IMG/VR virus record: IMGVR_UViG_3300025674_007832
Span: 1 to 21,530 of that record
DNA from: a virus
Reading direction: 5' to 3' (one strand)
DNA: 21,530 bases
How positions within the stretch are numbered: position 1 is the first letter of the stretch; every line of letters begins with the position of its first letter. A program made the translations under genes and the position numbers. The notes below the pieces were generated by a model. That model did not search any database. It worked only from the letters and a program-made list of their open reading frames with translations, and was not told the origin of the DNA. Positions 18,390-19,532 of the stretch are shown piece after piece.

Positions 18390-18407
18390 GGTAACTCAGG
18401 CTCGCCA

Positions 18408-18533
18408 CCAATTCTTTGACTGGAAATTGGAAACCAGGCGGGAAAGAGTCCCATCCGCACCACCAGTTTTTTTGAGAAACTGGAAACTCAATGGGTCTTT
18501 TGACTCCACCACCTAATTTACATACAAATTAGG
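18408..18533. repeat. three tandem, covarying hairpins about 50 nt apart
   Basis: Three units share a pattern on the plus strand: (C)CACCA, then a hairpin, then GGAAA. Stems: CCAATT/AATTGG (18408-18413, 18425-18430), CCAGTTT/AAACTGG (18463-18469, 18477-18483) and CCTAATTT/AAATTAGG (18512-18519, 18526-18533). Stem bases differ between units in a paired way. Smaller GGGA/TCCC-like stems sit between them. In mRNA sense (minus) they form the 3' UTR of the gene ending at 18513, and the third stem contains its stop codon. Function unknown. Confidence 0.6.
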
Positions 18534-18778: not shown

Positions 18779-19045
18779 TTATAGACCATCCGTGTCTTCG
18801 TCATCATCTTTTACATAAGCAGGGACTCTATCAGGATCTAACCAGCAGGTATAGTCGTGATCCTCCATAGCAGTCATAAGTTGCATTTCATTATCTAGAA
18901 GATACATATCCCTATATCGACCAGTGTAGGAATCTACTTTTTGGATGCGATAATCGGGTTTGCCGTTAATTTCAAGAATACCAACTTGAACGTACCGATA
19001 AGGAAAACGCTCAAGAAGCACAGTGGGTTTCCTGACAACTTTCAT
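18779..19045 (-). CDS. 88-aa hypothetical protein
   Basis: An 88-aa soluble-looking protein beginning MKVVRKPTVLLERFPYRYV, with a beta-rich middle (VGILEINGKPDYRIQKV) and a strongly acidic tail (DDDEDTDGL). No motif or membrane segment recognised. Its ATG overlaps the upstream stop by one base (TGATG), which supports the start and coupling to the 71-aa gene. Confidence 0.8.
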   Translation of the reverse strand: MKVVRKPTVLLERFPYRYVQVGILEINGKPDYRIQKVDSYTGRYRDMYLLDNEMQLMTAMEDHDYTCWLDPDRVPAYVKDDDEDTDGL

Positions 19046-19260
19046 CAGGCAACCTCAACTGCTTCAAGATCTTGAGCGATGTAATCAATCAACATTTCAT
19101 AATCGTCAAGGGGGTCACCAGAAAATACGACACCTTCATTTTCATAAAAGCGACGGACCTTTTTATAAAGTTTCGGATTCTTTACATCAAGGTAGATTTC
19201 CCCGTTAGCAGCAAGACGAAGAGTGCTAACATCTTTCTTGAATTTTGTAATCAGAGACAT
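19045..19260 (-). CDS. 71-aa hypothetical protein
   Basis: A 71-aa protein (MSLITKFKKDVSTLRLAANG...) with a basic first half and an acidic second half (GDPLDDYEMLIDYIAQDLEAVEVA; quoted in parts of the tail). No family recognised. It is the first gene after a perfect consensus sigma70 promoter, yet has no Shine-Dalgarno: the leader is a run of CAAAACAAAACA-like sequence before the ATG at 19260. The strong promoter suggests an abundant early transcript. Confidence 0.8.
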   Translation of the reverse strand: MSLITKFKKDVSTLRLAANGEIYLDVKNPKLYKKVRRFYENEGVVFSGDPLDDYEMLIDYIAQDLEAVEVA

Positions 19261-19283: not shown

Positions 19284-19312
19284 ATTATAAGGTGCTTGAG
19301 GTTTTATGTCAA
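19284..19312 (-). promoter_or_regulatory. consensus early promoter of the 71-aa/88-aa/79-aa genes
   Basis: On the minus strand TTGACA (19312-19307) and TATAAT (19289-19284) are both perfect with a 17-bp spacer. The predicted start is near 19277, about 17 bases before the ATG at 19260. It lies immediately after the tRNA-Pro-like RNA. Confidence 0.85.
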
Positions 19313-19337
19313 GTGTGCCAGTAGAAAAACTGGACAT

Positions 19338-19407
19338 CGGGGTAGAAGGTACTGCCCCCTCTTCGCTGCGTCCCAAACGCAGAGTTATACTTTTCTACTA
19401 TACCCCG
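19338..19407 (-). tRNA. degenerate tRNA-Pro(UGG)-like RNA
   Basis: Seventy nt fold as a cloverleaf on the minus strand. The acceptor pairs CGGGGTA (19407-19401) with TACCCCG (19344-19338), with discriminator A at 19337. The anticodon stem CTGCG/CGCAG encloses the loop TTTGGGA, giving anticodon UGG with U33 in place. The T stem is GAGGG/CCTTC. But the T loop is GGCAGTA instead of TTCGANT, and the D arm is weak (GTAG..TAAC, one mismatch) and lacks the GG pair, so the usual D-loop/T-loop contact is missing on both sides. Acceptor and anticodon identity match proline tRNA; whether it is a working tRNA, a decaying one or a tRNA mimic is open. A consensus promoter starts about 25 bases upstream, and a late-type AATAAATA (19424-19417) lies ten bases upstream. 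Confidence 0.55.
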
Positions 19408-19415
19408 TTACACCT

Positions 19416-19532
19416 TTATTTATTTCGGTGTATAAGCATTATACCCATAAAAGGCACGACTGTCAACCCCATTCCACATATAAACAACCAGACTGGACTT
19501 GCTGCGAGGGTCTCTACAATATGAAAAATCAT
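19416..19532 (-). CDS. 38-aa membrane peptide
   Basis: A 38-codon frame (MIFHIVETLAASPVWLFI...MLIHRNK). Residues about 13-33 are a hydrophobic helix with a basic end. The ATG at 19532 overlaps the stop of the 65-aa gene (ATGA) and has GAGAGGAAG directly upstream, so it is well supported despite its size. A perfect sigma70 promoter (19438-19466) lies inside the coding sequence. Function unknown. Confidence 0.7.
   Translation of the reverse strand: MIFHIVETLAASPVWLFICGMGLTVVPFMGIMLIHRNK
19438..19466 (-). promoter_or_regulatory. consensus early promoter for the tRNA-Pro-like RNA
   Basis: On the minus strand TTGACA (19466-19461) and TATAAT (19443-19438) are perfect with a 17-bp spacer. It lies within the 38-aa gene. 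Transcription would begin near 19431, just before a small TACACC/GGTGTA hairpin and the tRNA-like RNA. Confidence 0.82.

Follow-up and report, generated by a model that had tools for sequence, protein, structure and literature searches.

The window (the whole stretch of 21,530 nucleotides that was analysed) is a piece of a T4-like cyanophage, and its closest annotated relatives are the Synechococcus phages S-SRM01 and DSL-LC03. Two RNA motifs that are typical of cyanophages, wcaG RNA and PhotoRC-II RNA, are found in it at 18394-18491 and 1606-1698, respectively. On the minus strand the window carries an RNA gene of the tRNA-Pro(UGG) type, together with the features listed here in the order of transcription. 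L followed by a number is our handle for a locus or contig.

19438-19466, minus strand: perfect sigma70-type promoter, TTGACA-17-TATAAT (12 of 12 positions), upstream of the RNA and conserved in L010 and L103
19410-19431, minus strand: leader hairpin ACACC...GGTGT with AATAAATAAA in the loop; a varied form is also present in L010 and L103
19337-19407, minus strand: tRNA-Pro(UGG)-type RNA gene with a non-canonical elbow, 71 nt, CCA not encoded (identified by Rfam RF00005 and 26 distinct covarying homologues)
19401-19407, minus strand: 5' strand of the acceptor stem, CGGGGTA; C1 is the same in all homologues
19384-19398, minus strand: D arm GTAG-AAAAGTA-TAAC; weak stem with an A12.A23 (or A12.C23) mismatch, nearly invariant
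19366-19382, minus strand: anticodon arm CTGCG-TTTGGGA-CGCAG with anticodon UGG; the stem covaries and the anticodon is invariant
19345-19361, minus strand: T arm GAGGG-GGCAGTA-CCTTC; T54, T55, and A58 replaced, C56 and R57 retained
19337-19344, minus strand: 3' strand of the acceptor stem, TACCCCG, and discriminator A73
19318-19333, minus strand: 3' trailer hairpin CCAGT...ACTGG, common to the odd and ordinary alleles of the site
19284-19312, minus strand: second perfect sigma70-type promoter, downstream of the RNA, for the downstream genes
19045-19260, minus strand: 71-aa open reading frame of unknown function (cluster c4), a conserved downstream neighbour
18779-19045, minus strand: 88-aa open reading frame of unknown function (cluster c5), a conserved downstream neighbour

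Read on the minus strand, the window RNA forms the cloverleaf CGGGGTA-TA-GTAG-AAAAGTA-TAAC-T-CTGCG-TTTGGGA-CGCAG-CGAA-GAGGG-GGCAGTA-CCTTC-TACCCCG-A, with an acceptor stem of 7 bp, anticodon and T stems of 5 bp each, a discriminator A, and the anticodon UGG. The initial annotation had described the acceptor stem, discriminator A, anticodon stem, and UGG loop of a proline tRNA as intact, and this was confirmed, as the Rfam tRNA model RF00005 matches the window RNA end to end (model positions 1 to 71) with 34.9 bits and an E value of 5.9e-6 for 271 bases; the gathering cut-off of this model is 29 bits. Another homologue of the same class, which we call the odd class, scored 35.5 bits. The fast filters of Rfam missed the window RNA, and ARAGORN did not call a tRNA for the window copy. 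ARAGORN does call the L008, L010, and L058 variants tRNA-Pro(tgg) and misses most odd-class copies, so that censuses of phage tRNAs undercount proline tRNAs. A match to an azaaromatic riboswitch scored 16.8 bits, below its cut-off of 45, and was attributed to chance. The perfect sigma70 promoter that had been claimed for the RNA was also found, and a promoter of the same kind lies ahead of the ordinary tRNA-Pro alleles at this site, hereafter the first locus. The AATAAATAAA element between promoter and RNA may be of the T4 late-promoter type, which it resembles. That CCA is not encoded is not distinctive, since the ordinary alleles of S-SRM01 and DSL-LC03 at the first locus and of phage B23 at a second locus also lack it. 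In L080 (1892-2053), and also in L027, L032, L039, L064, L084, and L085, a Phd/YefM-type antitoxin gene follows the tRNA-Pro gene behind the same promoter.

Few features of tRNAs are as strongly conserved as the elbow formed by T54-A58, G18-Psi55, and G19-C56, except in mitochondria and in tRNA-Pyl. The canonical elbow is made up of the contacts U54-A58, G18-U55, and G19-C56 (PMC7912444). In the register of a 5-bp T stem, the T loop of the window RNA is GGCAGTA, so T54, T55, and A58 are gone and C56 and R57 stay, as in the odd class as a whole. The earlier claim that the T loop had lost TTC thus holds for T54 and T55 and not for C56. Similarly, the claim that the D loop had lost GG is right for G18, but one G is kept, and in an alignment with the nearest canonical allele, L122 (D loop AATGGTA), this single G can be placed at G19. 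Because C56, R57, and an alignable G19 remain, the loss of the contact between the D loop and the T loop, as first proposed, is not established. In the odd class, positions 54/58 are G/G (A/U in the AGCRTTA form) and positions 18/55 are A/G, whereas 19/56 can stay G-C in the alignment with L122. With this combination of bases, the elbow looks rebuilt as a unit and not simply lost. A substitute contact, either U20-G55 or A18-G55, is possible. The core is changed as well: G15:C48 and U17a are lacking, and A15 and A48 are invariant in the odd class.

To collect the family, an anticodon-arm scan, which returned ordinary tRNA-Pro as well as the odd type, was followed by D-arm and T-arm patterns. 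Besides the window, the odd RNA is present in nearly 70 IMG/VR contigs, which contain 26 distinct sequences and one hybrid, L267, where an ordinary D arm (loop AGCGGTA) is combined with an odd T arm. One pattern scan yielded L172 as a genuine member. Of 89 distinct tRNA-Pro(UGG) alleles, 62 have an ordinary T loop and 27 an odd one, with no intermediates, and T-arm scans without a constraint on the anticodon found the odd T arm with UGG and with no other anticodon. The D arm of the class is nearly fixed (GTAG-AAAAGT(T)A-T[AC]AC; a single base immediately 5' of the arm varies), its loop being AAAAGTA or AAAAGTTA with only one G. The T loop is also nearly fixed, as GGC[AG]GTA or, in two sequences, AGC[AG]TTA. 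None of the 26 sequences departs from the anticodon UGG, C1-G72, A73, G35, G36, G37, or G49, and U8, A14, and U33 of canonical elongator tRNAs are present, as are the 7-, 5-, and 5-bp acceptor, anticodon, and T stems. Pair 49-65 is G-C, and pair 51-63 is G.U in 17 of the 26 sequences and A-U in the other 9.

The stems of these homologues covary. Pairing is kept in 99.8% of the 520 stem cells of the 26-sequence alignment, compared to 44 to 57% in slid controls, and double changes occur at 10 pairs. The covariation score is 0.293 versus 0.144 in shuffles, none of 500 shuffles being as high, and compensated variation is found in the acceptor, anticodon, and T stems. The initial annotation had proposed a maintained RNA rather than random decay, with the stems of relatives as a refuting test set in advance. 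The changes found there are compensated, which favours maintenance, and almost 70 contigs have nearly the same loops. A tRNA-Pro pseudogene in decay, its stems kept by chance, would fit the silence of ARAGORN on the window copy and the missing loop bases, which are otherwise universally conserved. Such a gene should have uncompensated stem changes and drifting loops, and it is rejected by the covariation; with loops nearly invariant in 26 sequences and the element present in many phages and in several genomic contexts, we regard decay as extremely improbable. A blastn search with the 71-nt element in both subfamilies gave no real match in 50,697 phage records, strict patterns for the odd RNA matched none of the GTDB genomes, and no tRNA is present in the isolate S-EIV1, a relative of some contigs that carry the odd tRNA. 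In the open-access papers that were searched, we came across no description of the class, which we rate as a tRNA-Pro(UGG) whose elbow is non-canonical.

Judged from its sequence context, the first locus is a tRNA-Pro(UGG) site of cyanophages. S-SRM01 and DSL-LC03 have an ordinary tRNA-Pro(UGG) at the position of the window RNA, behind the same promoter. Among 80 syntenic loci that were gathered via the downstream 88-aa gene (cluster c5), nearly all have a tRNA-Pro(UGG) at an equal distance, most of them ordinary and some odd. L010, with an odd allele, and L103, with an ordinary allele, have 98.7% identity in 936 bp of upstream sequence and 94% in the downstream sequence, whereas their tRNAs are only 54% identical; the difference is limited to the tRNA and a few bases of the trailer. 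Likewise, the window and L092 (ordinary) share 96.8% identity over 400 bp downstream and 51% in the tRNA. In a tree of the downstream flank, a quick tree from a small alignment of 320 columns, odd and ordinary alleles are intermixed; branches with good support require three or more changes of class, and the grouping of all odd alleles in one clade is rejected. The same alternation is seen at the second, unrelated locus, where L222 carries the odd allele and isolate B23 an annotated tRNA-Pro-TGG between homologous neighbours.

The ordinary tRNA-Pro(UGG) genes of S-SRM01, DSL-LC03, and B23 are close to the odd class in their position among shared neighbours, anticodon, C1-G72, A73, and lack of an encoded CCA, and those of S-SRM01 and DSL-LC03 at the first locus also share the type of promoter and trailer hairpin. 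They differ in having G18G19 and a TTCRA T loop in place of A18 and GGCRGUA or AGCRUUA. The nearest ordinary allele, L122/L143, has the 71-nt length, the 4-nt variable region, A12.C23, and the CTGCG-TTTGGGA-CGCAG arm in common with the odd class, but it has an ordinary D loop (AATGGTA) and T loop (TTCGATT). Ordinary alleles are swapped among themselves too: in 73 of 139 ordinary-ordinary pairs with flanks that are at least 90% identical, the tRNAs are less than 75% identical, so that the tRNA-Pro locus (L087-L166) is a hotspot of tRNA allele exchange.

The odd RNA is usually the sole proline tRNA in phages with 14 to 26 other tRNAs. L181, the contig of L023, has 26 ARAGORN tRNAs for 18 amino acids, none of them for proline, and it carries the odd RNA; L056, L074, L075, and L084 similarly have the odd RNA without another proline tRNA. 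L013 and the contig of L069 depart from this pattern in holding the odd and the ordinary tRNA-Pro(UGG) together. This points to a possible lack of full equivalence between the two.

Alternation with an ordinary tRNA-Pro(UGG) at two loci and the filling of the proline slot favour a working proline tRNA. Conservation across dozens of viruses and one-for-one swaps with ordinary tRNA-Pro also indicate that this is probably a working tRNA and not a dead gene or a decoy. We therefore do not favour the roles first suggested for the RNA, namely, a tRNA mimic, a processing signal, or a decoy, at least as far as the sequence comparisons go. With reasonable though limited confidence we take it to be a phage tRNA-Pro(UGG) of an unusual, self-contained type, with a rebuilt elbow, that would decode proline codons with its UGG anticodon during infection. 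Cyanophages maintain a UGG proline tRNA at this locus, and the gene is repeatedly exchanged for tRNA-Pro(UGG) alleles of other phages, apparently through recombination at the tRNA boundaries. One widespread class of alleles has a rebuilt elbow and core (A18 for G, GGCRGUA or AGCRUUA for TTCRANY, and A15/A48) and retains the acceptor stem, the anticodon arm, the T stem, C56, R57, G19 by alignment, and most identity elements for ProRS. The RNA would be transcribed from the sigma70 promoter, its ends would be processed and CCA added by the host, and it would be charged with proline. It would then decode proline codons in infection by means of an alternative elbow, possibly G19-C56 and a new contact. 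The bacterial proline identity set consists of A73, G72, G15:C48, U17a, G49, G35, G36, and G37 (PMC9976931); six of these elements are invariant in the odd class, and G15:C48 and U17a are absent. As T54, T55, A58, G18, and G15:C48 are absent, TruB, TrmA, EF-Tu, RNase P, and ProRS may each recognise the RNA less well. Translation without GG and TPsiC is known, as tRNA-Pyl and type II mitochondrial tRNAs likewise lack G18, G19, and TPsiC and are functional (PMC7609411). Those tRNAs have short D loops or long anticodon stems, or compensate by means of the variable loop, whereas the phage RNA has ordinary lengths and a sense anticodon for proline.

The same features could also be read as those of a tRNA that is charged with proline and kept out of ribosomal translation, serving as a proline donor for a non-ribosomal reaction or as a regulator of infection. 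In Staphylococcus aureus, a non-proteinogenic tRNA-Gly has changed positions 18/19 and a weak 51-63 pair and T stem, and is thereby kept from EF-Tu and from translation (PMC4052509). The odd class has parallels with it: ProRS identity is mostly kept, positions 18/19, T54, T55, and A58 are changed, and pair 51-63 is G.U or A-U, where the S. aureus tRNA, with its synthetase identity also kept, has GG18-19 replaced and A51-U63. Pair 49-65 of the odd class, on the other hand, is G-C. The two contigs with odd and ordinary alleles together would agree with such a division of labour. Yet the S. aureus tRNAs are host cell-wall tRNAs that exist alongside proteinogenic copies, whereas the phage RNA usually replaces the only proline tRNA of the phage. 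It substitutes one for one for ordinary tRNA-Pro in near-identical phages and is the only proline tRNA of several large tRNA sets, and inspection of the conserved neighbours by eye recognised no recurrent aminoacyl-tRNA-transferase-like gene. We consider a role outside translation unlikely.

A further alternative is that the RNA draws off a host tRNA nuclease, or another protein that binds the anticodon arm of tRNA-Pro, as a decoy or as a substrate to be sacrificed, with the altered elbow barring it from translation. In favour of this are the intact anticodon arm, the strong promoter, and the known ability of phage tRNAs to counter defences that target tRNAs (PMC10264068; PMC11555353; PMC13096335); in addition, some phages have the Phd/YefM-type antitoxin gene directly downstream at the first locus. 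This gene also adjoins the ordinary allele in DSL-LC03, and we rejected it as a link to the odd class. A decoy would not need C1-G72, A73, G49, an exact elbow, or alternation with ordinary tRNA-Pro, and no nuclease for tRNA-Pro(UGG) from Synechococcus or other cyanobacteria was identified in the present analysis. Altogether, a decoy seems very unlikely to us. Phage tRNAs that evade anticodon nucleases (PMC10264068) are likewise phage borne and have deviant positions, but in these the anticodon loop is changed; in the odd class it is the elbow that is changed, and the anticodon loop, TTTGGGA, is shared with ordinary alleles.

It is also conceivable that selection acted on the DNA, the odd allele being a form that resists a homing endonuclease, encoded beside tRNA-Pro genes and cutting the ordinary ones, and is spread by gene conversion, with the tRNA still usable. 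In several contexts, HNH endonuclease genes extend into the 5' end of the tRNA-Pro gene and stop there, often with T8-A9-G10 of the tRNA as their TAG stop codon; such loci include L017, L026, L035, L056, and L216 in the odd-class list and L003, L099, L106, L124, and L140 among the canonical ones. Free-standing homing endonucleases accompany phage tRNA genes (PMC13096335), and the alleles are swapped at the tRNA boundaries. However, an adjoining HNH gene is present in 8 of the 53 contexts of odd alleles and in 8 of the 81 of ordinary ones, and a homing endonuclease as a specialty of the odd class was rejected on this ground. Furthermore, stem covariation and fixed loops would require selection at the RNA level as well. 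Resistance to cleavage of the DNA is in our opinion a poor candidate.

Returning to a working proline tRNA, one may guess that the altered elbow protects the tRNA from some factor by which ordinary elbows are recognised. Both host defences that cleave tRNAs and phage tRNAs that act against such defences are well documented (PMC10264068, PMC13096335), and Cas12a3 contacts the T arm of tRNAs (PMC12851939). We put forward tentatively, as a possibility that we consider unlikely, that the elbow was redesigned in one piece (18-55, 54-58, and 15-48 replaced) so that translation accepts it and an elbow-recognising host enzyme, such as a tRNA-degrading defence, does not. If this is true, the tRNA-Pro(UGG) locus of cyanophages is an arms-race locus with swappable alleles. 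Pairs of alleles such as L010 and L103 offer a natural test of which elbow contacts translation needs, and also of whether phages alter tRNA elbows to escape host enzymes.

Other unusual tRNA-like RNAs are present in cyanophage tRNA arrays. These RNAs, of 110 to 127 nt, have ordinary acceptor, D, and T arms and an insertion of 50 to 70 nt in the anticodon arm. They were found at L264:5239-5348 (phage B23), at L181:182-299 and 371-483, and in L252, L178, L188, and L255, and those tested score 45 to 55 bits with the Rfam tRNA model. They may be introns or a further tRNA-like class. Several of them have a hairpin like TATCTAGTTTTAGATA followed by CAGCAATTA, and one copy in B23 is annotated as tRNA-Undet.
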